Source of the DNA: Pocillopora verrucosa
Taxonomy: Eukaryota > Cnidaria > Anthozoa > Scleractinia > Pocilloporidae
Direction: 5' to 3'
Assembly: GCF_036669915.1 (NCBI RefSeq)
Contig: NC_089315.1
Location: 31,258,131-31,322,130 of the forward strand
DNA length: 64,000 nt
Shown here: positions 3,001 to 59,400 of the stretch, piece by piece
Position numbering within the stretch: the first letter of the stretch is position 1
How the letters are laid out: every line of letters begins with the position of its first letter
Notes under the pieces: generated by a model
What the model saw: the letters and a program-made list of their open reading frames with translations, nothing else
The model's database searches: none
Told to the model about the DNA's origin: nothing
Program-made: the position numbers and the translations under genes

Positions 3001-6000
3001 ATTCTAAAAAGAAAACAAAAGAAACCCGTGAAATAGTCGGAAAAATATTGTAAGCCCAGCTCGTTTAGAGAAAAAATAACTTCACCTAGTTATCAGTGTA
3101 GCTGTGGCTGGTTTGCTCTGAGAGTTAATTTGGTTGAGCCTCCTTTGTTAAATACCCACAGTCGATATCTCACCTTTAAAATAATTGGTTGTAGGTCTCG
3201 ACGAGACTGACATGTATGGGTTGCCATTGGTCCGTCGTTTAATTCCGTGTCCGCTTTGTATCAACTGGATGACTCACCGCAAATCAATGAAACGATCTGT
3301 TTCTATGGAGTTTCCATCCACTCTTCCCTCTAATTTTCTTATGTTGCAAACTCTTCATCCGCACAATTTCACTCTGACGGAATGCGCAGCAACTGCGATG
3401 CGTTTTTCAACTATCAGCTGTCCTTCCCATCCGGATAGAGTGGTGTCCATATCGCTTCTTATCCCGGACTTGTTAATGGCAGACCTACCCCGGCAGTTAC
3501 TTGTGGATCAAACTCAATTCAAGTTCGACCCGCGAGAATCACATAAGATTGGCGGTGGTGGCTCTGGTGAAGTGTATCGTGGATCATATCGAAACGAGAC
3601 TGTGGCGGTGAAAATATTCCACTCTATAGGCCAAACTGGGTAAATGTTTGAGAAATTCAAATTTAACTTTTCTGTTATGCTCTTCTTATAAGTTGAGTTG
3701 TTAACGATCATGTTCATGTGCTTGATGCGTGTCGAAGGATTTTACAACTAACTGGTGTTCAGACATCATGGTTTGGGCTTCTGTGACTAAGGACTCAGGC
3801 ACTTTATCATTACACGTTTGGAATACATATTATCCTAAATATTATTCATTAGAAGAGGTAAATCCCTTGCGTGACATTTATGGTTTCTTTGACTCTTCCC
3901 GATGTGCAGCTCTCTCCTTGACAGCGGACTTGGAAACACTGGGCCCTCTCCTGGATCCAGGACTTTAAGTGGATCCTGTTATAGGTCCCATGTGAGTGAG
4001 GGCTCAAGTGGCCGGAGATCTGATGTGTACACTGCCAACACTGAACGTGACATGGAGGAGGAACTGGAAAGGACTAAGGTTGTCAAAGCTTTCTGGGACT
4101 TACGTCAAGAGGTAATAATAAAGCAACATAATATCAGTTTCTAATCTTTTGTAATAAAAGTAACTAACAGTGTCATATTTTTCTTTACCCTGCCCTACGC
4201 CACCCTAGTCCCCTCGTTTCACTCCCAAGAGCTTTTCATTTGCATTACAGACTACACATCACTAACGGGTCGCTTATTTGCAAGTAAACGCTCGAGAAGT
4301 TGTTGCTCTCACATACCACCATTGTTTCTTAGTTTTATAACACACCCGGTAAGAACCTCCAGCCCTTCTTCAATCTCCCTCCACAAAACCAATAATAATG
4401 AATAAATGACAGAGATGGGCATTATTCATAAGAAACTAAGTTCAGCCATATTCCCCAAATATGCGGCAGATAGCAAATGATTCAAGAGTATTAAGATGTT
4501 CTTCGAACAGTTAATTTTACTTATTTTCGTAATGAATTAGGTTGTTAATTTGCTTTAGTTGATAATTTTGAAATTGTTAGAGTAGCAAGGATTTTCTTTG
4601 TGATCGTGTTTTTAGGTAGCAGTCCTTTGCCGATTGAATCATCCATGTGTTGTCAGACTTCTTGCCGTTTCTCTGCGTCCACTATGCTTTGTTTTGGAGC
4701 TCGCCCCTTTTGGTAGTTTAGCTACAGTCCTTGACGAGCTCTCATCAAAGCGTGAAGCTCGAGAGAACGAAGGCAGCCAAGTTTCCAGGAGCAGGGAGTC
4801 AATTCTTGGGCGTGAATTATCCTATAACATCGCTTTTCAGGTATCTGTCACGTGTAGAGAAATAACAGACGCCTTAGAGGATTACCTTGGAACTAGAAGG
4901 TGTCTAAAGGTACCTCCAAGGTTTAGCTTTAGGATTGTGACGATGTTGACACGTGATTGCTTCTTTCTCGTAAGTTTTCTTACGTATGCGGTGACTTGAA
5001 ACCGTTTGCCACCATAAACCGCTTACTTCCTTCCTTAGACAGGAAAACAAACAGACAGCCAACAAACAAACAAACAAGAGTTGACCTGTAGCAAGTACGA
5101 AAGTCAGAACCCCTCAACAGGCATCCGTGTGTTGCCTCTTGTTTGCTTTTGCTCTTGCTTTCGCACCAAAGCTCAAAAGAAAAAGACAGCATGTTTGCAA
5201 TTCCTTTCAACGCTTTTAATTCTTTTTATCGCCTCAGGTCGCCAGTGCCCTTTGGTATCTCCACGACTGTAACATTATCTATCGAGATCTGAAAGCCGAC
5301 AATGTTTTAGTTTGGTCCATGGATGAGTCCGCTTTATTGAACGTCAAACTATCTGACTACGGAATCTCGTGTTTCGCCACACCTCAAGGAGTTGCTGGAG
5401 AGGAAGGGACTCCAGGATATCAGGCTCCGGAAATTCGCACTGGAGTCGGTTACGATGAAAAGGTAATGAAATCACAGACTTAGTGATAAAAGCAGAAAGG
5501 TTAAGCGATATTGTGCTACCTACAAGTAAAATTGTCAAAGTGCATTAGTTACGAGCATCTGAGCGCGGAATCTGAAGGGCTGAGGTTTCGATTCCTCATG
5601 AGGACTCAAAATTTTTTCTTTGTCCCACGCTCGTGACAAGACGAAAAAACATCTTTCTTTAATGCATCAGTTATGTTTCTTTTTTTTGTTCCAGGTGGAT
5701 ATTTTCTCCTTTGCAATTTTTCTGTTTGAGCTGCTGACAGGATGTCGTCCTTTTAGTGATTATCGCAATGTCGTGGACATCAAGAAAGCGATTCGACGAG
5801 GGGTGCGGCCTTCACCTCAGCTTGAATTAGATTCACAATTACCAAGATTAGAACGGCTAATGAGGTAAGAATTTGTCAATGATATACCTCTGCTTCACAC
5901 ACTTAATACCCTTGTAAGATTGTCCACGGAAATTCAGTTTATTGATAGTGCAAGGTTTCTTTGGGATAATGAAACCACCTCACAGGAGAAGGAAGGCGGG

Positions 6001-9000
6001 AAAAACTATAACTGAATGAGTTACCCACCGCAAGAAGATATTAAGTACTTTTTCTAAATGTGGTGATGCATGTAAAATTATTATAGAGGGTTTGGATCAT
6101 GTGGGTCAACGCTTAATTAAATCCCATTCACACGTAATTCTCATTCCCACTTTACCTTGTAACTTGCATCATAACTTATGTTGCTTTGCATTCTTTAGAT
6201 CATGCTGGCATCAGTTGCCAGAGAAGCGTCCTCCTGCAAGCGAAATTTTAAAAGAGATGGAAGATCCAGCTTTCTTATGTCAGTGTCGACTGTTACCAGC
6301 CACTGATGAAAACTTGTTGGAGAAAGTTACAGCAATTTATGCCTTATCAAATGTTGCTTCTGGTAAGACTCGACGGCTTATCGCCATTGGATCATTTAGT
6401 ATAAGTGCGCGTGTTGCTTGTGTCTTTATTATCTCTCTCGTTCATTTGGGTCTTTTCCATCCGTAAAAGATGTCGACTTTGCTCATGTACTCGTCAACTT
6501 ATGTTACCTGCGCACTCTTGCAGGCAATCCCAAGGTCCCTGAGGCTATGGAGGGTTCTTCAACTGAGATCGCTTCGAACTTTATTCTGATTTGGAGTCGT
6601 GAACGAAATGATCGGTACTACAGTATAATCAACTGTGAGACAGGAGTGTTCCATACACAAGGACAAAACTGTGAGGGACATAGAGTGCTTTGCATGACGA
6701 GAGTTGAAAATCGAACTTGGCTTGGCACGGAGGTAAATAAATTTTGTTATTAATCGCAAACAAGCTGAAAAGAAAAAACTTCTTCTTTGCAGTACTCAGG
6801 AGTGGATATGATTAATTTCGAAACTGAGAGAAAAAAATTGTTCTAGTGTTGCTTTTAGTTTATTTTTAATGTCTATAAGAGTGTAAATCTGACAGGGACC
6901 ATTTTTGTAGGGGTGCACTATAGAGGTGTTCGGACGGACGTCCTGGCGTAATCCCTCAATTCTGTGGTCGTATACCACTAAGGCTCCAGTTCTTGCGCTG
7001 TTGACGGAGTATTTTCCTACAGATGAGGACCTTCCTGAAAAGGCAGAGCTTGAGGTATAGCTACAATGTTTTTTGTGTAATATTGTCACTATGATATAGT
7101 TGCCATGGTTTTGTGTTTTGTATTCGTACATTTGTATGTCGCAGCCAGCGTTAAATTCTCTTCCAAGGGAGCTTCCTCATTATGCACTAGTGGTGTTTAA
7201 AATGGTTCCCTTCGAAGCTACATAGAGAAATGGACACAAAGGCAACTGAAGTAACCTCGCTAAAATGTAACAATTCCAGTACCTTTCAAAGGTGAATGGG
7301 AAAAAATACCTTTGGACGGAATTTGGCCTGGATCAAACACGTCCATTTAGTTTTTTAACTTCCAAGATTAGAGTATCTTGAACTTCACATTTAATTGAGG
7401 TTTCTGTCTTTTTTCCATTAATAGAGTGGCACAAGAGTTAAAAGTGTATTTGCTTCCCTTGCCAATGGTACCCTGATAGTGTTCACTCCTAAAACTAGAT
7501 TAGCACGAAGATTTTCGCATGCTGATGTCACTCTAGAAACGAAAGGCGAGGATGAACGGTTGAAAAAGGAAAGTGACAAGTGGTCTAACTTTCAGGTTTG
7601 TTGTGTATGTTGTCTTTTTTTTCAGTTGCGAGAAATACTAAAGGAGAAAGACTTTACCCTTTGTCACATTAGAAATGAGAGATTGAAACAGTTTGTTGTT
7701 AACGATTGCACGTTATACTGCGAACATGGTATTACACATAAGTTCACAACATGTACACGTCTAACGACAATGGATTATTCTTGGTCAAAATTCATTTACT
7801 TCTTAGCCGAAGACCATTCTGGTGGCACTAACAGGTTGTGGGTTACTCTTTAGTGATACATAGCTGTGTTCACTTATTGTAGGTTGTTAACCTTGGTCAG
7901 TCTGGTATGCCCACCAAATGTATGGTTCTCGTATTCAATAATAAAGAACTGTGGGTTGGATGCGGCAACAAGATTGTGATAGTGGATACCAACACCTTGG
8001 TCATTCTGGACGAGATTGCGGTGTACCAAACGCAAAGGACGCATGTCCGGATCATGGTAACGGACGGAACACGTGTTTGGTGCGCGGACAGGAGGTCATC
8101 GAAAATTTTACAATGGGAAGTTAGCAGTCGTCAGCTGACCAATATTTTTGACTGTGATGTTAACAGTCCAGTTGGAAAAGTTTTAGACACAAACATAGTA
8201 GAGTCCCGCCGTTTCACTTCAAGAAAAGGTGATGATGAACGCTCTTCCCGTCGTGACAGAACAGTCAGTGACCCACCTGATATGTGCGAGCCCTCTTTCA
8301 CTGAATCGATGTTTAAAGAGGCGATGGATCGTAGTATCAATGAAGAAGGCGACGAAACAAACTCTTTGCGTAAAGAGGATTCACTTCCTCGTCGAATTGG
8401 TTCTGACTTTGGTCGAAATACAACAGAAAATGATCGTCATGAGGATTCTAAAAATATGGATTCTAAACAGGTTCAGGCATTTTCCCGTTCTCTGTCCCTA
8501 CCAGCGGAAACCGTCTCCGATGAGGGTGGAATTTCTTCTTTTTGTAGCACAGATACAACGAAAAGTATCACAGTTCTTGCTCAGGCTAGCAGTACCCCGC
8601 AGGAGTCTCACGCTCAAACCGAAGATTTTCAAACAAACGAAGATTCTGTTTCAGTAATTTCCGAAAATGTTCCAACTTTAATCGAAAAAACAGCGACAAT
8701 CGATAATATTCGAAACTCCGGCGAGGAAGTCATAGAATCGAGATGCGACGCTACTTCCAATCATGGCAAAAGTGATGCATTATCTATGACATTATCAGTT
8801 GAAACTATTCCTGAAATTACAATTGAAGCCCAGAGACAGACAGGAGACAACAATGTTGAAGATGAAAAAGAGACCGAAACAGTAACCAGAGAAGCTGTCG
8901 ACAAAAGGGAAGGTGCAGATTTTGAGCTCGTTGACCGCGAAGAAACTCGTCAAGCTTTCATCGAAGGTGCACGAAAAAGTTTAGGCTCTGAAAGCTCGAT

Positions 9001-12500: not shown

Positions 12501-13045
12501 CAAATTGTCAAAGCCTTTCAGCAAGGAGAAAAATGGACAATGATTTCTCTGTATGGAGAACAGTCAGCAAAGAGACTAAATTGACTAAATTATGTTTTGA
12601 CAGCTAAAACCACTTATAAATATTTACCAGATCCTTCAACAGTTGAATTGCTCCAAGGGTGACTGATATTTTACGAGCGTTTTAACATAATAAGGAGCAC
12701 TAAATAAGGTTGTTAACATTTGTTCCCAATCGGAAGTTGTACAGTGATGAGATAAAAAAAAAACTTATCGTACTCACTTCATCATCGTCTTCATCTTTAT
12801 GAACATCAGTAAAATTATTTTTAGCTCTTTCTGGAAGGGGGAAGCGATATTTGGCAATGGAGGAAAGCCGCCCGCCCAAGATGAACATCATCACTATGTT
12901 CCTGTTGGTGGCTATCCATTCACATACTCTTGCTTTAACGTAATGACATTCATAACATATTTGTCGAAAAGACCAAAGCAATAATCGTATTCTAAAGTGA
13001 TTATTAATCATTGTTCTGTTTACAAACTTCCAAAGGAAAACCACG
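9545..13045. other. Intergenic region between LRRK1-like gene and first GPCR
   Basis: About 3.5 kb of AT-rich sequence without a supportable gene. It holds the presumed 3' UTR of the LRRK1-like gene, a short 18-bp tandem repeat at 9560-9613 and, near its right end, the presumed 5' UTR and promoter of the GPCR at 13046. ORFs of 60-160 codons here show no domain, membrane or splice pattern. Confidence 0.6.
9560..9613. repeat. 18-bp tandem repeat, three copies
   Basis: Three consecutive units of TATAGCATGTTAATATGT with single-base differences (A/C/T at the 13th base) start 16 bases after the LRRK1-like stop codon, in the presumed 3' UTR. Confidence 0.85.
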
Positions 13046-13915
13046 ATGACAGCAAGTGCGAGCCCTTCGGTGACGCCTCCAAACCTGGCCTTAGTTCTAT
13101 CAGCCGTCACAATAAACGGACTACTAATTATCTTGGGTACACTGGGTAATCTACTGGTACTTTTGGTGATTTTTTTCAACATTCGACTTGCAACACCATC
13201 TAACCTACTTCTTGGAAACCTGGCCCTAATTGATTTATTAAGTCTGTTTGTCGTCTCTCCTGGTGGTATCTATAAATATATGTGCAGGAAAGGTTTTTGT
13301 CACGTCCCAGAAACGTTTGTTGTGGCAAATCGTGGACTTTCACAGTTTATCGCGCCTGCTGCAGTCTCAAGTTTATTATCGATCGCTGTAGACCGTATTT
13401 TATCCATTAAATATCCATTCAAGTACACTTCTATGATGACAAAACGACGTGCTGTCGTCATTATCTCCCTTACGTGGCTGTTAGGGGCATTTATATCAGC
13501 TGTTTTTATGGTACTAAACTTTATATATATACAGCCTGCATACTGCACTGTCATCATGTTGGTGACAATATTTTTGTACATTCATATCTTCCTGTTTGCT
13601 CTGAAAAAAGAAAGACAGATTGCCAGCTTGCAGATTTCAAACGTGCAAAGAAATACAAACTTCTTACATGAACGAAAGTCGACGAGAACAATGGCAATAA
13701 TTCTTGGTGTATTTTGTGCTGCATGGATCCCAGCTCTTATATTTTACTCAGTAGTTTTTCCAAGTGATCCACGATACTTCGACATACAGAACTGGATTAA
13801 CATAATATACTATTTAAATGCCTCTTTAAATCCATACATCTACTGCGTACGAAGCGCTAACTTTCGGAAGACAATGAGAAAGATGGTGAAGTCTTGTATG
13901 ATTCGTTACAGGTGA
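13046..13915 (+). CDS. Class A (rhodopsin-like) G protein-coupled receptor, orphan
   Basis: Single-exon ORF of 289 aa with seven hydrophobic segments and a very short N-terminus of about 15 residues. Class A landmarks: GTLGNLLVL in TM1 (N1.50 at residue 35), NLALID in TM2 (D2.50 at residue 63), VDRILSI at the end of TM3 in place of (D/E)RY, AAWIP in TM6 in place of CWxP, NPYIY in TM7, and a basic C-tail (RKTMRKMVK). Cys in the CHVP segment before TM3 and in the second extracellular loop (AYC) could form the usual disulphide. It acts at the plasma membrane through heterotrimeric G proteins; the ligand cannot be told from sequence. It is a close paralogue of the receptor at 16795 and the pseudogene at 19334 (shared CHV/CHA, NIIYVQ/NFIYIQ, ALKxExxIAS, YYLNA motifs), so the cluster arose by tandem duplication. 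Confidence 0.93.
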   Translation: MTASASPSVTPPNLALVLSAVTINGLLIILGTLGNLLVLLVIFFNIRLATPSNLLLGNLALIDLLSLFVVSPGGIYKYMCRKGFCHVPETFVVANRGLSQFIAPAAVSSLLSIAVDRILSIKYPFKYTSMMTKRRAVVIISLTWLLGAFISAVFMVLNFIYIQPAYCTVIMLVTIFLYIHIFLFALKKERQIASLQISNVQRNTNFLHERKSTRTMAIILGVFCAAWIPALIFYSVVFPSDPRYFDIQNWINIIYYLNASLNPYIYCVRSANFRKTMRKMVKSCMIRYR

Positions 13916-14989: not shown

Positions 14990-16794
14990 TATGTTTACAC
15001 GACAAAAATTGATTGAACCTCAACCCTTTTGGTCAGGTCAATCCCGCGTCTTGACAAGGTTCATCTGGCGAGCTGCACCTAAACATTAGCGAATGATGAC
15101 GGAACATGACAACTGATCTCTGTGTTCCGATTGGTTTGTTGGGTAAAACGGACAGTCAGTGTCGTTAGGTATTGAAATATGAGCGCAATATAAGAATTAA
15201 CTTTACTTACGCCGTTTCATTTACCACAATAAGAAGTGATCCTTCAAACACTCATAAAAAATTTTCAAGCCCTACAGACGAAGACTTTGGGGTGAGCGGA
15301 AGGCAATCTTCTTGAAATATATGTATCTTTTTCATCTTCAATAGAGATGAGTGAGAGATATGTTCAAATCAATAAACTTCGTAACATGTGTGTCAATTGT
15401 CGGCGTACAGATAGCCTGGGAATCTTAATGAGACAAATATATAGGCGCAGTTCATTCAACCATGTGAAAATTTACAATATTGTTCGGGCTTGTAATGAGT
15501 GGGTGTTTCACTTAATGCATGTGGAAAAAAAACAAGTTGTTATTACATTCTTTGACTACCTCCAGGCAGAGAAACTACTTCACCACGAATTTCAGTCGAG
15601 TGAACGTTCAAAAGCGGAGCTGACAGAGGTTAACTGTTCACAGTTGCCAAAGCAAGTAAGGTAGAATCAAACACTAAAGCGCTCTCTTTATCTACAATAT
15701 TTTCTGGTTTGCGTATAGCAACACTGGTGATAGGCGATTGGGGCCTTACTATTGGAATAAACGTTTTTTACAAGAAACAGTTGTCGTTAACCCATTGGTT
15801 GATGACGTTTTTATTTGTTTAAGATGCTATACCAGCTAAGAATGTTTTAAAACAGAAAGCAATTCTCCTATCCAAACGCTGGCTGAACTCACAGCCTGAG
15901 CCGCTAAGAATTTCGTCACATCGCGTCGACTGATTATTTAAGAGAATTATTTAAAAATATATATTTCTACATATCCAGTCTCCCTCTAGCAGCTACCAGC
16001 CACGGATTTTACATGGCGTCCTCAATAGAGCAAGCCAGTTAATGATATTTTAGCTACGTTTTTCTATCCAATGATTTGTTCTATAAATGGTGAATGTACT
16101 ATGTTCTTTGAAGATTTCTAGTTATATTCTGTTATGATGAGCTGGCCACCCTCTTACTTAGATTTCTAACCTGTACACTGAAAGTTTGAGAGCCCCCTAA
16201 GTATTCCACTGTGGTCTCCATTGGAAGTCAGTTCAAAACCAAGAAGGCCATGATGACCTATGTACTGGTCATCCAATTCACAGATGGTCAAATATTTGAT
16301 AACAAGCTGCAGAAGAAATCAGTAATAAAAAAGTGACCAATATCGAGATTAACAACAAATATTTACACCTCTCTTTGAAGACGAAGTTAGGAGCAAATAG
16401 AAATTAACCATTCATCTTCTATGATAGTTTGACGACTATGCATATATGCCCGCTTCGAATAATACCTGATACTGCACCAACAAATTCGAAGGACATGTGC
16501 TCAGTTATTGGTTGTAGATTTTCCTATGATTGGTTAATTAAAAGTTTGGCTTCAATTATCATAAGTCAATGGGCGCATAAAGCGCCAGGAAATCTTGAAC
16601 AATATCTATATTTTAAATGGTATGCATGAAAAAAGATTTTTAAAACCATGAATGACCACTTAAAGTTTATGCTTTTTTTCTGATGGTGCTAATTGTTAAT
16701 ATTTCTTTATGTGTGAATTACGAGGTTCATAACGTGTTTAAAATGCCTTCCATTTTTCTCTTTTTTCAGTTCTCCACATCGAGTGTTAGGCAGA

Positions 16795-17676
16795 ATGTAT
16801 GAAAACACCACTCGACTCGCCACTTTAAATTTAAGTCGTCAAACACCGACCATCTTAACTGATGCGACAGGTGGAGCTGTTATTGCGCTTGATGGACTCA
16901 TTTCCATATTTGGGACGTTAGGAAACCTTCTCGTATTAGCAGTGATTTTTGTTGCGCTTCGTTTCTCAACAGTTTCCAACATCTTGATAGCGAACTTGGC
17001 TTGTGTTGATTTACTGACCGTTACCGTGCTGATTCCAGGTGATATTGCACGTCACTTGTGTGCTAGAATGGGACTTTGTCACGCGGACAGGACATTGGTG
17101 TTGCTGCACCGTGTACTGGCTCAGTTTATTGTTACTGCTGCCTCAACAAGTTTATTTTTTATCGCATTGGAGCGTTTCATAGCCATTGCTTTTCCATTTC
17201 GTTACAAGTCCCTGTTCACGAAGACAAAAGCTACAGTGTGTTCTTTCCTAACTTGGACCTCGGGTGCATTAATTACCGGTATTTTCCACGGTTTAAATAT
17301 CATTTACGTTCAAAACACCTACTGCATCTTGCTACTTTTGGTTACATTCATACTATACTTTTACATGTTCTTCGTTGCCTTAAAACACGAAAAGAAAATA
17401 GCTTCAACGCCGGCTAACTATAATATGCGGCCGACTCAACTCCTTTGGGAGAGCAAGTCAGCCAAGACAATGGCTATTGTGTTGGGTGTGTACGCACTTT
17501 GCTGGTTTCCCTCAGTGATATTTTACTCAGTGGTTCGACAAACTGATTGGTTGTACCCAAGACTCCAAGTCTGGATAAATACAGTGTACTATTTGAATGC
17601 TACCTTAGACCCGTTAATTTACTCTGTGCGAAGTGAGAAGTTTCGTAGATCTGTTAACAAGCTTCTCACATCGTGA
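16795..17676 (+). CDS. Class A G protein-coupled receptor, orphan
   Basis: Single coding exon, 293 aa from the ATG at 16795; an in-frame GTG at 16783 opens the frame slightly earlier but is not a likely eukaryotic start. The N-terminus has two N-glycosylation motifs (NTT, NLS) and seven hydrophobic segments follow. Motifs: GTLGNLLVL (TM1), NLACVD (TM2), FIALERFIAI (TM3 end, ERF instead of DRY), LCWFP (TM6, a near-canonical CWxP), DPLIY (TM7, Asp in place of the NPxxY Asn) and a short basic tail. The acceptor-like CAG at 16769 suggests a 5' UTR intron, and an AATAAA follows the stop within about 40 bases. It is a sister of the receptor at 13046 and the parent-like copy for the pseudogene at 19334. 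The ligand is unknown. Confidence 0.92.
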   Translation: MYENTTRLATLNLSRQTPTILTDATGGAVIALDGLISIFGTLGNLLVLAVIFVALRFSTVSNILIANLACVDLLTVTVLIPGDIARHLCARMGLCHADRTLVLLHRVLAQFIVTAASTSLFFIALERFIAIAFPFRYKSLFTKTKATVCSFLTWTSGALITGIFHGLNIIYVQNTYCILLLLVTFILYFYMFFVALKHEKKIASTPANYNMRPTQLLWESKSAKTMAIVLGVYALCWFPSVIFYSVVRQTDWLYPRLQVWINTVYYLNATLDPLIYSVRSEKFRRSVNKLLTS

Positions 17677-37400: not shown

Positions 37401-39957
37401 TTTCTAATGGCCATAAATAATTAAGTTAAATTGTCTTAAAAAGCCAAGATGATTTATCTGGCATAACCACAAAAAAGTGTTTTAATGTGAAATATATTTG
37501 CCAAGCAAGCAAATGTGCTCTAAACCAGATGTCAATTTTTACAATAAGGGTACTCGTATATGGACAAAAAGCAAGAGTATTTTCTTGTCGCTATTCAGTC
37601 CAGAAACAAGCTTTAGACATTATTCAGAACGCGTGTGTCTTGAAATAATCAAAACACCTTGAACAGTGTCCTATACATAAAGGTTGGACTTGGACGAAAA
37701 TGATTTATTTCATCTAAGTCAGAGTACCATTACTTTTCTTTCAATTAGGTAATAGTCAAGAAAACATTCCCTGAAATTTATTTAAGTCATGTAAAATGCA
37801 CTTTGGGCTACACGCGCAAACAAGTCAAGTCAATATGTTGTTTGCCACACACATTTTAAATTCTTTGTTTTGTAACAACAAACTGCTCTGTTCTTTTCAT
37901 AAACGCGGTAGAAACCAGCTGGAGACTTATCAAAACTGATCTTTGTGTTTTTAGATGCCATGCTGGGAGGAAAACAAACTTAAATTCCACAGTTATATCG
38001 TGGCTTGTTGAGCGCTACTTCTGGAGAGTTCCCTTCATGTATACACCGCAATCGCACTGCACCACCTGAGTAAAAATTACACAAACATATCTCTGTTGAT
38101 AAAAATCGTCATTTGCTGATCAATAAATCAAGGAGGAATATTTCTGAAATTTTAGCAAGCGGCAAAACGCAATTAACAGGTGAATTCTTTCACCAACAAC
38201 TATTTTATCGAACAATAGAAAAAGTTGGAGGAGTATCCAGTTATCTACATTCCCATGTCAAAATTACAGACTTTTTACCTGCTTAATTTGCAAGACAAGT
38301 CAGCGGGCAAATTTGAAAATATCAAAAGAATGTGATTTCCCTCCATGTTTTCGAAAAAACGCCTTATACATGTCTTTCAATGCTGAGAAGTGTCTAATTT
38401 CATGTAGTTTTTCCGACCATGTCTTCTTCTGAATAAATTTCGTGATCGTGTAAGCGGAAGGTATATATACAGGCTAACAATTTTTTTGCGTGTGTGATTT
38501 TACTTCAATTTTACCCTGATATAAATGTATTTTAACAATAGTTATTGTGGGGCTAATCAATTCATTATTTTTTGGGTGCCAAAGGTTTTATCAAACCATA
38601 AAAACTATTTGGCCTCAGGACGAAAGGAGAGGTTTAATTTGTTTGAAGTTGATCTAACATCAAAACGATACAAGTTTCCCAAACATCGCAAACTACGAAA
38701 TAGAACCCATAAACCAGACATTGCTGGAGACAATTATTGAAAAGAGATGAGGATGATTTTATTGTAAACAAGGAACACGTTTTCGAACTGCTAGAAATGA
38801 AATTATGGACTAAACCGCATTCATTTGTCAGCAAAGAAATATAAACATTAATCCCATGTTTAGTAGATTTGTGAGACAAAACAACTGCTTTTGACGCCTT
38901 GCTCTGTATGCATTTGGAAACTTATCGACCATCAACATTTAGATCTTAAATTTCTAAATTAGGTGGTACTCTGTCGGATATTACAATTTTATCTTGAACA
39001 GTTTTACATAACTCTTCAAAGTACCTCCAAGACAAATACTGTATCTGAAGAGTTCTGACGTGTAAGTTCGATCGCGCTTAGTGCGGGATATTGCTTGCTC
39101 ATGCCATTTGGCGCGTTAGGTGGAATAAAGGTAAACATCATCTCTTTATCTGTCGTATATATAAATTTTCTTCCTATTTATAAACCCGAAAAATAACAAC
39201 AACCTTTGCTCTACACCTGCTTTAAATCTACCATAAGTTGTTTCGTGCAGATTGTCAACGGAAAACTTGGCAAAAACAGATAACTTTTGGTATTTATCAC
39301 ATCGACTGGTGGTTACAGGGTCAAAACGATTACTTTATTGTCGTTAGTCTGTTAGCGAGGAAAGAAAAGATGCCATCTGTCTCTAGCGACTTATATTTTA
39401 TAGAAAGCATTACTTATTGGCCAAAGCTTGTGTCTTAGTGTCAATGTAATGTTCAGCCAATCAGCTTTCTGCTTGTAAAACGCGGTCACTATTAGACTGC
39501 GGACCGGGTGGTCGATCCTGGCAATGGAGGCGGTGCTTGCAATTACCTTAATCACCTTGTCTACAAAAGAACTTAACAGTCAAGAATAACATGAAAGAAA
39601 CGCGGTGAAATCAAGACCTAAAATTACCAAAAAACTGATTTTATCTATCGGTATAGGTATTTTATTGGAGCTAAGCAATTTCGTGGCTTGTAAAACGCTC
39701 TCCTTTGAAAATTTCCTTGGATTTCGTGTCGCGTTCGGCTCAATTTAGCTGGTTAGTTTTTGGCTTTGTTTAGCCGAGACAGAACAATTTGCAGTGAGGT
39801 CAATATAAGCACTCATGAGGGTGGTGATAAATATATGTCAGCGACCTGAAACCAATCGGAAGCTATTGTTTGGCACGGTATTTGTTTGACTAACTAAAAG
39901 TATAATAATTCATAATCTGCAGTGGGCCGTAGAAAGCATACACGGCAGTGGTAATTC
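34430..39957. other. Gene-poor interval between NDUFA9 and FoxQ2-type gene
   Basis: About 5.5 kb, AT-rich, no supportable exon chain. The left end holds the NDUFA9 promoter; a plus-strand 41-codon ORF starts at 34428, overlapping the NDUFA9 start codon on the other strand. ORFs near 35487, 36595 and 38525 have no domain features. The right end should contain regulatory sequence of the forkhead gene, but I cannot point to a specific site. Confidence 0.5.
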
Positions 39958-41052
39958 ATGAGAATACACACAGGAGACATGAGCGAATTTTTAAGTGATA
40001 TGGTGGTTGACCTTACAAACTTCGGACAACTTTCGACTGCCGAGAGCCACAGTGAAATGGCGTTACTGCCTGAAAACAAAGAAATCGAAGACACAGAGAA
40101 TGAACATGTTATTTCAGAGAGTGATCATGGAGCACAGAACCCTGAAGAATGCGTCCAAAACTTTATAGAGGACTTAGACTCGGCTACGATGGACCGAAGC
40201 GAGTCGCCTGAAGAAGATGGCAGCCATAAAACTGACTGCAACGATCCAGACGTGAAGCCAACCCATTCTTACATTGCGCTGATAGCAATGGCGATATTAA
40301 GCTGCCCTAACAAGAAGATGATACTGGGAGATATCTACCAGTACATTTCAGATAACTTTCCGTATTACCGAAATAAGGACAAGAGTTGGAGGAACAGTAT
40401 CAGACACAACCTGTCTCTAAATGAGTGTTTTATCAAAGCGGGTCGCAGCGAAAACGGCAAAGGAAACTACTGGGCTATTCACCCGGCCAACCTTGAAGAC
40501 TTTGCCAATGGTGATTTCAGGCGTAGAAGAGCCAGACGGCGGGTGAGGAGAAGCAACCCTTTAAAATATGGAAGCAGTTCCTGTCCCTCGGCGTATTTCC
40601 GGGGACTGAGTCCTCTTTCAGCATCTTCTTCTTTCTTTCCTTTTCGCACTGACGACTGTCGCGGATACCCAAACCTAACATACATCCGTCCTACCAAGAA
40701 AAGCTTCGCCATTGAAAGCATCATGGGTTCTTACGATTCCCCTTACCTCTACAGTCCACTATCTGTTAGGTCGTACCCTTCTCTGAATCTGGTTGGGAGT
40801 CGAGAATTTCGTGGCACCTCACCACCCCACTCGCTTCTTTTCCATACCTCACCGAAGCTCGTCTCTTGCGTATCAAAATTGGGAACAACTGCTATTCCTG
40901 GGTGTGCTGCAACCTCACTAGAGTCGTCAGCGTTTTCAGCTTACCTCGGATCAAAAACTGTTGTCACACAGGGCCAAAAAGGCTCTGCACCAGAAAGCTG
41001 GCAAGAAACTCTATCTAAATTACAAGATCAACTGAGAAAAGTAACACCCTAA
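39958..41052 (+). CDS. FOXQ2: Forkhead transcription factor, FoxQ2-type
   Basis: Single exon, 364 aa from the first ATG; a second ATG at 39979 (MSEFLSDMV) is an equally possible start. An acidic N-terminal region is followed by a forkhead domain near residues 100-195: KPTHSYIALIAMAIL, DIYQYISDNFPYYR, DKSWRNSIRHNLSLNECFIK (recognition helix), GKGNYWAIHPANLEDFANGDF and a basic RRRRARRRVRR wing. AIHPAN..DF..GDFRRRRARRRVRR is typical of FoxQ2. After it, residues 250-256 read FAIESIM, an eh1-like Groucho-binding motif on the C-terminal side, as described for FoxQ2 of some lineages. FoxQ2 proteins bind DNA in the nucleus and pattern the aboral/apical end of cnidarian and other larvae. A candidate AATAAA lies at 41620-41625. 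Cnidarians carry more than one FoxQ2-like gene, so which paralogue this is remains open. Confidence 0.88.
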   Translation: MRIHTGDMSEFLSDMVVDLTNFGQLSTAESHSEMALLPENKEIEDTENEHVISESDHGAQNPEECVQNFIEDLDSATMDRSESPEEDGSHKTDCNDPDVKPTHSYIALIAMAILSCPNKKMILGDIYQYISDNFPYYRNKDKSWRNSIRHNLSLNECFIKAGRSENGKGNYWAIHPANLEDFANGDFRRRRARRRVRRSNPLKYGSSSCPSAYFRGLSPLSASSSFFPFRTDDCRGYPNLTYIRPTKKSFAIESIMGSYDSPYLYSPLSVRSYPSLNLVGSREFRGTSPPHSLLFHTSPKLVSCVSKLGTTAIPGCAATSLESSAFSAYLGSKTVVTQGQKGSAPESWQETLSKLQDQLRKVTP

Positions 41053-44408: not shown

Positions 44409-44545
44409 CATATTCTCCCTCTGAAGATTTAGATATATGAAAATTCACATATTTGCACTGCGGTGGAAAGATGAAATTAGAAGATCCTCGCAGCTAAGAA
44501 CACTACTGAAACTAGTAGTTGTAAGTAGGACCTGAAAAAAATTTC

Positions 44546-44618
44546 AGGCCCGTACGGGATTTGAACCCATGACCTCTGCGATACCGGTGCAGCGCTCTAC
44601 CAATTGAGCTAACAAGCC
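44546..44618 (-). repeat. tRNA-Thr(GGT)-like SINE head, copy 1
   Basis: A 73-base cloverleaf is possible: acceptor GGCTTGT/ACGGGCC, D arm GCTC/GAGC, T arm with GGGTTCAAATCCC. In the anticodon arm the loop reads CCGGTAT, so position 33 is C instead of the invariant U and base pair 31-39 is A-C. These defects and the shared SINE tail argue against a working tRNA gene. Confidence 0.75.
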
Positions 44619-44783
44619 AGCTGGTCAATGAATTGGGTACAAATAAACATCCGAGTGAATGAAGATTTAGATATATGAAAATTCACATATTTGCACTGCG
44701 GTGGAAAGATGAAATTAGAAGATCCTCGCAGCTAAGAACACTACTGAAACTAGTAGTTGTAAGTAGGACCTGAAAAAAATTTC

Positions 44784-44856
44784 AGGCCCGTACGGGATTT
44801 GAACTCATGACCTCTGCGATACCGGTGCAGCGCTCTACCAATTGATCTAACAAGCC
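44784..44856 (-). repeat. tRNA-Thr(GGT)-like SINE head, copy 2
   Basis: Same 73-base structure as the copy at 44546-44618 with a few substitutions, including GAACTCATG in the T arm and GATC in place of GAGC/GCTC pairing in the D arm, so it is more decayed. It keeps the same C at loop position 33. Confidence 0.72.
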
Positions 44857-45136
44857 AACTGGGAGCTGGAAGATCCTCGCAGCTAAGAACACAACTGAAA
44901 CTAATAGTTGTAAGTAGGACCTGAAAAAAATTTCAGGCCCGTACGGGATTTGAACCCATGACATGAAAAAAATTTCAGGTCCTACTTACAACTACTAGTT
45001 TCAGTAGTGTTCTGAGCTGCGAGGATCTTCTAATTTCATCTTTCCACCGCAGTGCAAATATGTGAATTTTCATATATCTAAATCTTCATTCACTCGGATG
45101 TTTATTTGTACCCAATTCATTGACCAGCTCCCAGTT

Positions 45137-45209
45137 GGCTTGTTAGCTCAATTGGTAGAGCGCTGCACCGGTATCGCAGAGGTCATGGGTTCAAATCCCG
45201 TACGGGCCT
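45137..45209 (+). repeat. tRNA-Thr(GGT)-like SINE head, inverted copy
   Basis: The forward-strand copy has an intact A box (TTAGCTCAATTGGTAGAGC) and B box (GGTTCAAATCCC), the RNA polymerase III promoter of a tRNA-derived SINE. The anticodon-position bases are GGT with C at position 33. The head is followed at once by the CCTGAAATTTTTTTCAGG hairpin of the SINE body. Confidence 0.78.
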
Positions 45210-45439
45210 GAAATTTTTTTCAGGTCCTACTTACAACTACTAGTTTCAGTAGTGTTCTTAGCTGCGAGGATCTTCTAATTTCATATTCTCCCTCTGTTGT
45301 GCAAAATCTTAAACCAATTGACCTTACACCATTAGCCGCTCAAGAGCTTACCGTTAGATCGGCAATACAACTTAAGTTTCAATACACTTGAATATTTCGG
45401 GCAATCTGGGTCACTGTGGTCAAAAATAAAGATAAAGAA

Positions 45440-47629
45440 GAGGGTCTGAATGGGATTTAGTGTTTAGTGTTATTTGCCCATATTTTTTAGTGTTTACTGT
45501 TAAATTGACTATTTTTTTAATGTTTACTGTTCTGGAAAAAATACTGTTTAGTGTTTGAAAGAAGACCCCAAAGTTTTTTTTAAGCATTTTCATATTTTAT
45601 CTGCTCTTTTAAATTCTGCAAGAAAATCAAGAACATCACTCGCGAACAGTGAGCCAAAGCTGAAATGCTCTTGTCCTTAGAACTGATAATGCGCCTGACT
45701 AGACCCTCAGTACTAGATGTACTTAAGGGGATACGTTTGATAATCCACACAATAGTTCCTGAAGAGTGTCGCTTCTGGAAGTCCAACCAAATTAGTGTTT
45801 GCAAAAGACCAATTGTAATTGAAATTGGGCCCCAAGGCAAAGTACTGGCGTTAGACTACGATTTCGACTCTCGATAGTCTCGTAGAACTGCGTTTACACC
45901 GACCAGTCGATGTAAATATTCGGAGGGAAGTACTCAGGGATGCGCAGGACCTATGCTTTACCAATGGCGTAGTCTTCGTTGCAGAGAGAGGCTCATCAGC
46001 AATCCGTTTCATTGAATTGAAAGGCGAAGTACTTTTCAAACCCGGACGCCTAAAATCGCGAGCTGATTTGCTTTCGCAGCTTAGTCGTTTCAGATTGTCA
46101 CTTGAGGGTACAGGTCCAGTTCTACAGAAGCGGTTGACGACACATCTGAGATCTTTAGCTGCACAAGTCGAGAATAAACAAATTGTCCAGATTAACCCAC
46201 CTTTAAGTAAATCAACTTCCATCTGTGCGGCAAGTAAGGATATCTTCTTGTTTGCAGATGATGAGCAGAGAAGCATAATGCAGCTGGAGTTAGAGTACAA
46301 TGGAGTGCCTATCATCGGTAGTAGGCTGAGACAGATAAACTATTCCAATGACGTGACAAGTGTTGAATCTCTTTATGTTCTGCAGCAATCAGCATACTTG
46401 GCAGCAAATGGCGCAGCTGGAGGGTTATATGGTTGTAACCTCGATTCTGTCAATGTTGAGCGACTCTTGCGGAATTCTTCAGATTCTTGTAAGGAAATCA
46501 AGAGGCTGTATAGTTATGAGGGCAACATTGTTTTCACCGACAACAAAGATCAAAAGGTTACGACCTTTAATCCCTTAAGTGCAACAGTAGAGACCTTGTC
46601 GGGTACTGGCCATGAAGGAACCGTCGATGGAACTGAAGAAAGCTGCTCATTTACACAAGTGCATGCAATCTTTTCCTTATAGAAAATTTTTTTTGTTTCT
46701 GATATAGCTGATGAAACAATCAAACTAGCTTTGGGGTTTACTGGCAAAGTGTCCTTTCTTCGCAACCTCGAATGTCTCTATGATAGTTTTGGAATTGGTG
46801 CACATACGATCGACGCGGTCCAATTATCTTTTCAAGATGCTGTGTGCAATGTTTCATCTGTAAATGCTTATATTAAAAAACACAGTCGCTGAAGTAAGGC
46901 AGCACTATAAAATGAAAGAAACGGCAACAATAAGTCGCCCTGAAGGAACTGTTTCCAGCAAAACACAGGAGTCATTGGTGCTTCTCGAAAGAGGTATGGA
47001 ACAGCTACGAGATAACGTTAAGAATGTAAACGAGGACTATCTTGGTGACATTGACCTGCGTACGCTGTTAACAACTTAGGTGGAGAACCTTCATGCAGTC
47101 TCCCACTTCAAAAACGAGACTTTCACCTCTCTTCAGTATGCTCAAGACTTTGGAACAATTTCAAAGGAATCTTTAGAGAGAACAACGAAGTGGGGTGCGA
47201 AGTACTTCATACTTGAGAAGTCTTATTATCCAGTGCCTAAATCCAGTGTGGAGTTACAGGACGTAGATTTCATGAAACCTCCTCCAGCTGATAACGTTGA
47301 CCCCAACATTGAGGCAGCCATGAAGAAATTGGTTGACAGGTATCGACCTGTCAAGGACGGTAAGAAGCTAAGTAAGTAACTCTTCGGAAGTCTTGAAATA
47401 ATCCCGAATTGTTGGAAAATGGCCAAAAAAAACCTCTTTGATACAATAAACATAGGCCCAAAATAGATATTTCCCCTTTTAGGATGTAGTTTGTTTGTTT
47501 ATGGGAAAAAAAATGTTAGTACGAATTTTTTAATGTTAGTGTTAAAATGGCTGAAAATTAACTGTTTAATGTTATACACTCAAAAAAATAAGTGTTTAGT
47601 GCTATCGAAGTACTCCCATTCAGACCCTC
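45440..47629. mobile_element. 2.19-kb DNA element with 16-bp inverted termini and 6-bp target duplication
   Basis: GAGGGTCTGAATGGGA at 45440-45455 is exactly inverted at 47614-47629. AAAGAA directly outside both ends (45434-45439 and 47630-47635) is a 6-bp target site duplication. Just inside the termini, short TGTTTA/TTTACTGTT-type repeats occur; AGTGTTTAGTG is found on the plus strand at both ends (about 45459 and 47591), so these subterminal repeats are direct while the tips are inverted. The interior is almost fully taken up by the broken NHL-like gene at 45665-47379. No transposase is recognisable. The superfamily is not determined: 6-bp duplications are known for Polinton/Maverick elements, but this element is far smaller and has short termini. 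Confidence 0.85.
45665..47379 (+). pseudogene. Broken NHL-repeat-like gene carried by the 2.19-kb element
   Basis: A continuous protein can be followed through at least four lesions: a frame change near 45850, an in-frame stop at 46680-46682, a frame change near 46890 and an in-frame TAG at 47077-47079. The first two thirds look like a beta-propeller with NHL-type strands (NGVVFVAERGSSAIRFIELKG; GNIVFTDNKDQKVTTFNP; LSGTGHEGTVDGT; VSDIADETIKLALGF). The C-terminal part (LLTT, then VENLHAVSHFKNETFTSLQYAQDFGTIS and KWGAKYFILEKSYYPVPKSS) resembles a multi-copy family I associate with coral genomes, without a known function. The reading frame ends at 47377-47379. It is probably the element's own gene rather than a host gene. 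Confidence 0.72.
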
Positions 47630-47635
47630 AAAGAA

Positions 47636-56410: not shown

Positions 56411-59400
56411 TCATTGGTAATGGGTAGACATAACACCCTTCCTTTCTGAAACCCAGTCAGGAGCTATTATGAAGTAGCCTCGATCTCTTGCGCTCGTGTT
56501 AGTGAAAAATGAATTTTCGTGTACGTAGTCGTAATCTTCAAAACTTGTGTGGTATGTAGGGTCCACTCGTGGCCTTAGTAAGTGTGTTAGGGTTGCTTCT
56601 CCTATACCACAGGATCCGTACCTGGAGACATGAAATTAAAACAAATCATTTAATTTGACAAATTACGAACTCTTGTAAACTTGTACATATTATGAACTGA
56701 CAACGACATTGCGTAACAGAGACCTCTTATCTAGCATCAACCCATTTTGGACGTTGGTTTAATTCTCTTCATCGTTACTCTTTTTTGTTGTCTTGTAGCT
56801 AAAGTTTTGGTCTTATCATAGCGGTTATAACTTTACTCTTCCCTTCACACACTTCCAAAAAATTTGCGCAGAGTGTAACCACAGTCAAGGAGAACCAGGA
56901 AGGAATAGGGAATAACCAGGAAGGAATAGGGAATAACCAGGAAGGAATAGGGAATAACCAGGAAGGAATAGGGAATAACCAGGAAGGAATAGGGAATAAC
57001 CAGGAAGGAATAGGGAATAACCAGGAAGGAATAGGGAATAACCAGGAAGGAATAGGGAATAACCAATGGCCCAAAGCATTAAACCTTTGCTTTGAAACAG
57101 GAAAAGTGCTTCCCGTCTTGTTGTCTGCAAAACATTACAAACTACTTAACAGAAGGCGTGCAACTTACTTGTTAAGGTGTTCCAATAATCTCTTCACTCT
57201 TAAATAATCACAAAATTCACACTTTCCTTCCCCGTGATTAAAGTGATGGGGGTGTGCATGTTCCACGACTTGATTTTGGGTTATCTCGGCAACTTTGCCT
57301 TCATTCCTGATGAGTAAGTCAAAATTTGATCAGTTGTAAGAAAAGTGCATACTCCGCTGAAATAATACCATGCGTGGACTGACAGGAATGAATGAGTGGA
57401 GGAGGGAAACTTGTAAAAGTTAGCACTCTTCCCAGATCCTTTACTTTCCATTCGATATTTTCTCACTTTTGTGTTAGTCAGGCAGAGTTGAAGATCACGA
57501 AAGACCGGCAGTGGTGATCCTACATTATCGTACTCAGAGCAGCTCGTCGGGTAAAAAAAGACATAGCGATCAAAACAAATCCAAAAATACTGACTTTACA
57601 ACTCTCTATGGTCCGCCTTGCAACACTTTCTGAAGTTCAGCGAATAAAGAATTGTCATTTTCAGCTTCAGTGACACACTTACACACACTTTTCCTTTAGA
57701 AAGTCACTAACCTTACTGATCCAACAGATTTGGGACGCGGTGGAAGTGTGGGGCGTTCTGATACTCTTTTGGAGCGAGCACTTTTTGCCCGTTGTTGGAA
57801 ATACAATTCCTTTGAAAATTGAGGTTTCGTAGTTTTCTCTGCGGCTCTAGGTGCACTCTGTTTCACTTGTACAACACTCGAGGACGCCTTGTTTAATGTA
57901 TCTATGAAGTTGTGGACAACTGCTTTTTCTGGGAGGAAAAGAACAAACTAATTTAACCCAAAACAACTGGAGAACAACGGTGATCGGGAAATCATGGAAG
58001 AAAACATTCTCAAAGGAAAAGCATTAAAATTACCATATTCGGTTGAAGACCGTAACCAATTGTTAACACCAGGCAGAACAGGGCGCTCCATTTTCGCCTG
58101 AACGGAAAACAAATGTAAGTTCATTTAATTGGAAGACATAAGAGAGTACACCTCCCCCAGTGCGTTTGTACAAATAATCTTGTAATGTGCCCAGAATAGA
58201 ATTTCTCTTCTTCACGCTGTGCCGGCGATCATTTCGCTAGAACCTTTTCTTCTCATTATTCTTTCAGTTCGCAAATTCTACTTCAGGAAACTGCTAAGTA
58301 GACATTTCTTTTGACCTCACTAACTAGATTAAGAAATGAAAATCAATTTTAGCAAAAGTACAGCTTCAAAACAAAAAGGGTGGAAAACGTCTGCTGCAAT
58401 TCCTCACTCAAATAAGTTCTTACTCTGTTAATGTCATACCTCGCGTCTTTCAGGTCTACTGTGTAGCTCAACTTTCTGTCCAGCCACACCATAAAGGCGA
58501 TCTGCCGATAAAATGGAAAATATCATTTCAATGAATATTACCCATACACAGGTGTGAAACCAACTTTCTATCCATTGTTCAAATACCTCTATTCCGTTTT
58601 GTGCTGGTCGCTTCTCCTCGCCATGCCTCCTCCACTAATTCTAGTGTTGGCTGAATAAATTTCTGTAACAATGCCCTTTCCGAGTGCGTGGCTAGGCAAG
58701 AAAAACAAATCTAAGAAAAAACAGTAAAAAACACAAGCCTAACGAAATCATAAATATGTATATATGGCAAGTGTAATTTGCTTTCATCCGATTTAATCAT
58801 TTGTTTTTTCATTGCTCATGCTCGATTCAGTTCTTACTCGCCGTTTTAACACCTCTCGTGTGCTAAAAGCCCAGCTGTCAAAGTCCTTTAGTGTCTCAAG
58901 TTTACTTTGGCGACAACTAGCGAAGAGATATTTTCAAAATAATCTGCGCGTGTTTACTTTTTTCCTCTCAGGATTCATTCAGTGAAATTCCTTGGTCTCT
59001 CAGAATTAAGACCAAAAAAGAGTAATTAAGGTCATATTTTCCCTTGCCCTCTTGAAATTATCGTTTGAATAAACATTTTGGATCACTCAAATAAACAGTA
59101 AGATACATCGGCTTCACAACTTGGTGCGTCTGATGGATTAGAAGCTTTCGGCTAATATCTGTATTGTCTAAAGTATGCGCTTTTACATGAAAACTATGGA
59201 TTGTACCAAAAAAATCTCGCTGGCTTCTTTGTGTGACCTTCCTACTTGAATTTTCGTGATTCAGATGCGTTCTGTAACAACATATTGGCAACTCATTAAA
59301 GAAATTTGCGTCATGAAATGTACGGACAGTGGTAGACACGGCATTATCCAGTTCTGAAAATTAATTAAAGTACCTGCCGATCTTGAGTCGTCGGGTGTTT

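Follow-up and report, generated by a model that had tools for sequence, protein, structure and literature searches.

A probable cut-and-paste DNA transposon relic in the coral Pocillopora verrucosa, apparently retaining the rear half of its own fused NHL-like protein

Introduction

The 2.19-kb element described here is very probably the relic of a cut-and-paste-type DNA transposon, which was internally deleted twice, was left with the rear half of its own fused protein and would have spread in trans. It occupies positions 45440-47629 of the window, the whole 64-kb stretch of Pocillopora verrucosa DNA that was analysed, and belongs to a family, here named A, with larger relatives named B and C. 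The copy searches covered one genome of 353 Mb in 52 contigs, of which individual stretches are given L numbers.

Termini and target duplication of the window element

The features of the element, by window position and strand, are as follows.

45434..45439, no strand: left copy of the target-site duplication (TSD) AAAGAA, abutting the left terminal inverted repeat (TIR)
45440..45455, + strand: left 16-bp TIR, GAGGGTCTGAATGGGA; base 16 is G in 12 other A copies inspected
45456..45562, + strand: direct repeats (TTTAGTG units) of the left subterminal region; the first 160 bp contain 7 motif matches and no reversed one
45653..45877, + strand: gene piece 1, directly behind the lost front half; the B protein FWKSNQ..CKRPI..LDYDF matched by eye
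45855..46682, + strand: gene piece 2, NHL-like repeats flanking a possible SAP-like segment; terminates in a stop
46683..46892, + strand: gene piece 3, in which the NHL-like region carries on; broken by a 1-bp insertion
46864..47079, + strand: gene piece 4, C-terminal region; terminates in a stop
47080..47379, + strand: gene piece 5, conserved C-terminal part (QYAQDFGTIS, KSYYPVP)
47368..47379, no strand: point at which an internal 1.0 kb present in L021, L023 and L028 is deleted
47510..47605, + strand: right subterminal repeats, in the same orientation as the left ones
47614..47629, - strand: right 16-bp TIR, an exact inverted match to the left TIR
47630..47635, no strand: right TSD copy AAAGAA, abutting the right TIR

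The exact 16-bp inverted termini and the 6-bp AAAGAA duplication, both reported in a preliminary description of this DNA, were found at these positions. A scan for inverted pairs that match exactly at a spacing of 60-12,000 bp and are abutted by duplications of 4-9 bp returned the element as the sole 16-bp case in the 64 kb apart from an inverted tRNA-Thr cluster at 44437-45276. Any pair of at least 12 bp with a duplication of at least 6 bp arose in 3 of 60 Markov shuffles, the longest being 14 bp. With up to 3 mismatches allowed, the terminus is found within the window only at the two ends of the element, and two or more such loose matches occurred in 7 of 100 shuffles. The last TIR base is altered identically at 45455 and 47614 (GGGA for the GGGG of the 12 other A copies inspected), as though one end were a copy of the other. 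The exact terminus was also encountered in 11 stretches of viral contigs, which were judged to be chance by a rough 16-mer estimate.

The surroundings hold some features of their own. The tRNA-Thr-like copies at 44437-45276 form a tandem and inverted cluster with long shared flanks, which stops about 160 bp left of the element and in which ARAGORN reports two tRNA-Thr genes. Elsewhere in the window are a 365-residue open reading frame (ORF) with a forkhead-type DNA-binding domain by eye (39955-41049), two ORFs resembling seven-helix receptors by eye (13001-13912 and 16717-17673), and an in-frame minisatellite of NNQEGIG units, open on both strands (56803-57204).

Copies of family A and their insertion sites

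A DNA search with the element gave at least 54 matches, with 40 of 72 candidates scored. Besides the window copy and the diverged relatives, family A has at least 25 further loci, in which the matched pieces are 87-95% identical. The 16 other A copies with both ends measure 2,170-3,216 bp; most lie between 2.7 and 3.2 kb, and 9 of the 16 exceed 3 kb. Thirty stretches (L020-L049) were examined, representing 25 A loci and 5 B loci, and both ends were located in 19 of them (two after extension), leaving 11 without both.

The duplication was tested at 23 insertions, namely these 19, the window copy, L055 (extended), L059 and L060. The earlier suggestion of a 6-bp repeat, with its reproduction at other copies as the check, is borne out: the duplication is exact in 17 of 23 and has at most one mismatch in 20 of 23, more than one being present in L023, L037 and L040. 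The target sequences are varied, and a control with swapped flanks gave 3 matches in 506, two of which came from the duplicated pair L022/L025. Not all of the 23 are independent, as L022 and L025 have common flanks and L032, L036 and L037 a common left flank; these shared flanks probably reflect local or segmental duplication rather than transposition. The latter three lie at about 2.18-2.23 Mb of contig C14, and the former two on contig C1.

Two deletion derivatives have the same ends. L059 is 1,037 bp long with an exact ATTTAA duplication, and L060 is 2,912 bp long with a duplication bearing one mismatch; they retain different parts of the rear half. No front half was noted in any of the A copies examined. 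The non-autonomous family that had been considered possible is also borne out.

Subterminal repeats

TGTTTA is present in forward orientation in four places close to the left end and, close to the right end, at 47496, 47563 and 47593; its reverse form is found at 46175 and 47447, the latter about 180 bp from the right end. The earlier statement that these repeats are direct, not inverted, therefore holds for the outermost 160 bp or so, and likewise in B. TTTAGTGTT-like motifs, a pattern chosen after looking, keep to one orientation in the outermost 160 bp of either end, both in A and in B; the B copy L044 has 5 + 5 forward and 0 + 0 reversed, against shuffle maxima of 2 and 1. C has no TTTAGTGTT-like motifs and instead carries AACCGAC, likewise all oriented one way, with a single unit in the left 200 bp and five units in the right 200 bp (raw counts). 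The arrangement, not the sequence, looks conserved, and the repeats are putative transposase-binding sites.

The interior gene and its NHL-like character

The interior is taken up by a single broken gene on the + strand, in five pieces, the first of which loses its frame at a 5-bp deletion. A phmmer search against the PDB matched the NHL domain of SOQ1 (7djm) with a whole-sequence E of 4e-5 and 0.086 for the best single stretch, and the middle gene pieces are those that resemble it. The Pfam NHL model PF01436 scored 19.6 and 18.6 bits on relatives, against a cut-off of 20, and 12.7 bits (E 0.14) on the window copy, where two other scans gave none. The preliminary reading of one broken gene with NHL-like strands is compatible with these results. 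It had reported no transposase, and in the window copy the gene is indeed unaccompanied by a transposase half.

The segment at 46044-46178 is possibly SAP-like, to judge from ERI1 matches that have an E of 0.13 and ranked under three designed-protein matches; Pfam listed Hairy_orange and FIMAH, not SAP, at this place. Single-sequence folds, with a mean pLDDT of 32 and 38, were useless. The search for other copies of the gene within the 64-kb window gave weak matches only, and no relatives of the gene pieces were confirmed in viral and GTDB contigs. Relative to L021 the window copy is without 1,000 bp at about 47368-47379, so that the apparent gene end at 47377-47379 is an artefact of the deletion junction.

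Larger relatives and their fused protein

Family B was found through diverged matches of 72-73% DNA identity. Its copies include L044+L050 (6,876 bp, CTACAG duplication), L042+L052 (6,783 bp, CGTTAA) and L046 (5,446 bp, TTTAAA). GAGGGTCTGGATGGGG stands at both ends of L044 and L042; the right end of L043 and the left end of L045 were not found. In aligned blocks, the four other B copies share 98.7-99.7% identity with L044, which suggests that B was active recently. C is represented by L058+L055, 7,472 bp long with a TGAGAA duplication, and its left terminus is the A terminus with one mismatch. By the right end of C, at 6668-7045 of L055, an ORF that is tyrosine-recombinase N-terminal-like by eye starts a few bases inside the element and runs outward.

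The long frame of B is open over 1,107 residues in L044 and 1,077 in L042, and broken in L043, L045 and L046. Other ORFs lie upstream of it, and it would be the last exon of its gene. Its front half is rich in cysteine and offers candidates for D, D, DxxH and E, and its rear half is NHL-like. The B protein aligns in order to C at 57, 55, 32 and 48% identity. A has nothing that corresponds to the B protein as far as residue 424 or so (by arithmetic); beyond this point come the NHL-like part and a C-terminal part with QYA.DFGTI and S(Y/F)YPVP. At the DNA level, A aligns to B at 1-117, 4155-5903, about 6013-6123 and 6757-6876, with nothing at 118-4154.

This alignment, together with the uninterrupted frame of B, indicates that the NHL-like gene makes up the rear half of a long protein belonging to the element itself. 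Three options had been offered for it, and by these comparisons the gene appears to be the element's own product, namely the C-terminal half of a large element-encoded protein, and neither a captured host gene nor a passenger. The proposed search for larger relatives encoding a transposase led to B and C, which share the ends and whose long protein has candidate D, D, DxxH and E residues; no curated transposase model scored above its cut-off.

The front half as a transposase candidate

The front half is probably an RNase H-like (DDE-type) transposase, and would be the part that performs catalysis. The motifs behind this assignment were recognised by eye. DGTALKPGLE(Y/F)D is present in L044, L055 and L054, and a cysteine-rich stretch in L044 and L055. 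TDC.ECNKKA is found in L044 and L055 and appears as TDCESGNKTA in L056, L057 being without the D. PD..H.GKS occurs in L044, L055 and L057, not in L056, and VRNKDRMAVEP in L044 and L055, with VRNKYRMAVDP in L057.

Profile searches were less productive. No Pfam transposase model was above its cut-off on any B or C piece. PF21787 matched the C copy L055 at an E of 0.023, below the cut-off, in scans where an irrelevant RuBisCO activase domain reached 0.012 in L057; it gave no match in L044, L054, L056 or L057. In a PF21787 search of the coral's own genome at E up to 10, no B or C copy was among the 7 matches listed. Position 32 of this model takes the D of DGTALKPG (residue 68), as it does the D of the P-type copy L061, by counting with no gap assumed. 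Comparison by hhalign with five P-type fragments gave a probability of 0.1%, the profiles being shallow. Pfam found no THAP domain in four ORFs lying upstream in L046 and one in L044, where a domain split between exons could escape, and no GTP-binding domain. Against the PDB, a profile of the front half drew four chance-looking matches, antibodies first, and phmmer with the front half of L046 drew one match.

Rear halves and termini across the genome

The rear half gave at least 95 matches in the genome (88 of 257 candidates scored), which merge to 67 loci. The terminus pattern has 84 genome matches, against 0 for the reversed control, and for 59 of the 84 a rear-half locus is no more than 7.5 kb away, compared with 0.3% of the genome. 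The earlier proposal had been to count how often the gene lies within such termini, and to look for copies without them. An exact terminus in the correct orientation lies within 7.5 kb of 41 of the 67 rear-half loci (17 with both ends, 11 with the left only, 13 with the right only), and of 3 of 67 in the orientation-swapped control. The association stands for these 41; near the other 26 no exact terminus was found. The window copy is one of the 26, as the last base of its ends departs from the pattern. Given 41 of 67 loci beside transposon ends, transposon debris is the first reading to consider for such 'orphan' NHL-like genes.

Matches to the front half number 39 and fall at 29 places. For at least 7 of these places a scored rear half lies no more than 3 kb away, and widening the limit to 6 kb adds none. 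Many of the 22 places without a scored rear half may be front-half fragments alone; L057, one of the 22, shows rear-half motifs in its DNA.

Shared lesions and the loss of selection

Most A copies are broken in the same places. The 5-bp deletion relative to B is present in 21 of 22 A rows and the stop at 46680-46682 in 20 of 22, L034 being without it and L037 gapped there. L034 lacks both common lesions, and its rear-half matches are stop-free but in separate pieces; its right end was not found in the stretch examined. Among the 22 rows, the insertion near 46875 is confined to the window copy, and the stop at 47077-47079 to the window copy and L030.

Within A, leaving out L036 and L037, the variable columns are spread as 221/203/213 over the three codon positions (of 611/610/610), whereas the A majority differs from B at 131/102/277. 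The dN/dS of the rear half is 0.185 for the A majority against B (610 codons), a rough value as the dS of 1.14 is near saturation, and 0.76 within A (20 copies). The rear half was therefore under selection before A spread, and hardly afterwards. Given the common frameshift and stop, A would have spread with dead cargo, moved in trans. The A and B ends share 15 of the 16 bases of the family terminus and about 77% over the outer 117 bp, and from this similarity we infer that B or a relative did the moving.

Origin of the element and alternative explanations

The following course of events would account for these results. Complete relatives, of about 6.8-7.5 kb with the same inverted ends, direct subterminal repeats and 6-bp duplications, would encode one very long protein, in which a cysteine-rich, probably RNase H-like (DDE-type) half comes first, followed by an NHL-like propeller and a helical C-terminal half, with a possible SAP-like segment. 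Family A would have arisen by loss of the stretch that begins shortly after the left end and finishes a little way behind the catalytic half. The remaining rear half would then have gained the frameshift and the stop, while the family kept multiplying, its copies moved by protein made elsewhere, for which the nearly identical ends of B-like elements would be suited. The window copy would later have lost a further 1.0 kb.

Other explanations can be weighed against this one. It is very unlikely that a non-autonomous element captured a host gene by transduplication. NHL-like repeats are widespread in host proteins, and the window and A copies examined do carry the gene without a transposase half; against this, B has the same region in one frame of 1,107 residues with the front half, C has it in the same order, and 41 of 67 loci of the rear half adjoin an exact terminus. 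We give as little credit to the idea that the A protein still works, as an accessory or regulator retained by a non-autonomous element as an aid to transposition. About 1.75 kb of coding sequence is kept, above the need of a minimal deletion derivative, and L034 escapes both common lesions with stop-free, though separate, pieces; this sits poorly with a frameshift in 21 of 22 rows, a stop in 20 of 22, variable sites even over codon positions and a dN/dS of 0.76 within A. A chance inverted repeat around a decayed gene, a suspicion to which a lone 16-bp pair in 64 kb is open, is hardly conceivable in view of the copies with the same ends elsewhere, the 17 exact duplications in 23 and the 84 pattern matches against 0.

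A weightier alternative concerns classification: the chance is only a little short of even that these elements form a divergent lineage of a named superfamily (P, Kolobok, Dada, MuDR, or hAT with 6-bp duplications). The order D, D, DxxH, E, read by eye, is like that of the C/DxxH group in the available text of PMC9587614, PF21787 reaches E 0.023 in C, the GA..TC ends fit the Kolobok rule, and 6-bp duplications are described in Dada and hAT6. Against it stand the descriptions of P (8 bp), Kolobok (TTAA), IS3EU (TA..TA) and Dada (no inverted ends, small RNA gene targets), the lack of any Pfam model above its cut-off, and the negative hhalign comparison with P-type fragments. The superfamily may be undescribed. 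Among the titles and abstract openings of the literature matches listed, with Repbase outside this coverage, no description of such elements was found.

As a bolder proposal, which we put forward tentatively and consider somewhat doubtful, this would be an undescribed animal superfamily whose DDE transposase bears a cysteine-rich insert and is joined permanently to a beta-propeller of the NHL type and a DNA-binding, SAP-like segment. Contact with DNA or chromatin would be the task of the propeller, acting in cis, in an arrangement independent of RAG1/RAG2 but parallel to it. As binding sites it would use the direct subterminal repeats at both ends, which differ between families (TTTAGTG for A and B, AACCGAC for C) while the 16-bp termini stay nearly constant. 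The preferred reading, a deleted transposon relic with the rear half of its own protein, would already explain a class of 'orphan' NHL-like genes in this genome as transposon debris and not a host gene family. Confirmation of the fused transposase-propeller protein would provide a separate case of a beta-propeller-reliant transposase, with a bearing on RAG-like origins, and a new group with 6-bp duplications for transposon classification.

Comparison with known transposons

Terminal inverted repeats common to many copies, and a constant 6-bp duplication at separate insertions, speak for placing these elements with class II TIR transposons. The known groups are compared below as far as the available text of the cited papers describes them. 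P elements, which make 8-bp duplications (PMC7776569), and THAP9 (TNP) resemble the present elements in the succession D, D, DxxH, E, as read by eye along the front half, in the weak PF21787 match in C, and in having inverted ends with subterminal repeats and internally deleted non-autonomous copies (PMC7776569). They differ in the length of the duplication, which is 6 bp here, and the present elements have a cysteine-rich insert between the two D and an NHL-like rear half; the profile comparison was negative.

Kolobok has TTAA duplications and termini of the form 5'-RR..YY-3', and the C/DxxH group comprises hAT, P, MuDR, Kolobok and Dada (PMC9587614). The GA..TC ends found here fit the Kolobok and KolobokP rule, and the C/DxxH motif group is alike. 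The duplication here is a variable 6 bp and not TTAA, which sets Kolobok apart by description, not by transposase sequence, and terminal direct repeats of the KolobokP kind were not noticed here. The coral MITEs of PMC2872659, with TTAA duplications in the available account, were considered and are not these elements.

Dada makes 6-bp duplications, has no terminal inverted repeats and targets small RNA genes (PMC3706591). It is alike in its 6-bp duplications and its place in the C/DxxH group (PMC9587614), and unlike in that the present elements have 16-bp inverted ends and varied target sites. IS3EU also makes 6-bp duplications, but its ends are TA..TA or TAYGG..CCRTA (PMC10045372, PMC12730594), while those here are GAGGGTCTG (GAGGG..CCCTC). 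Some hAT members have 6-bp duplications (hAT6; PMC12730594); for hAT and hATC, no hAT model was listed in the Pfam scans of B and C pieces.

The RAG-like elements (RAG1L-RAG2L) pair a transposase with a beta-propeller partner, the kelch-type RAG2L (PMC7204232). The likeness is one of analogy only, that of a transposase working with a beta-propeller partner. In the accessible description, RAG-like elements have 5-bp duplications, separate convergent genes and a kelch propeller, whereas the putative propeller here is NHL-like and fused behind the transposase-like part in one frame.
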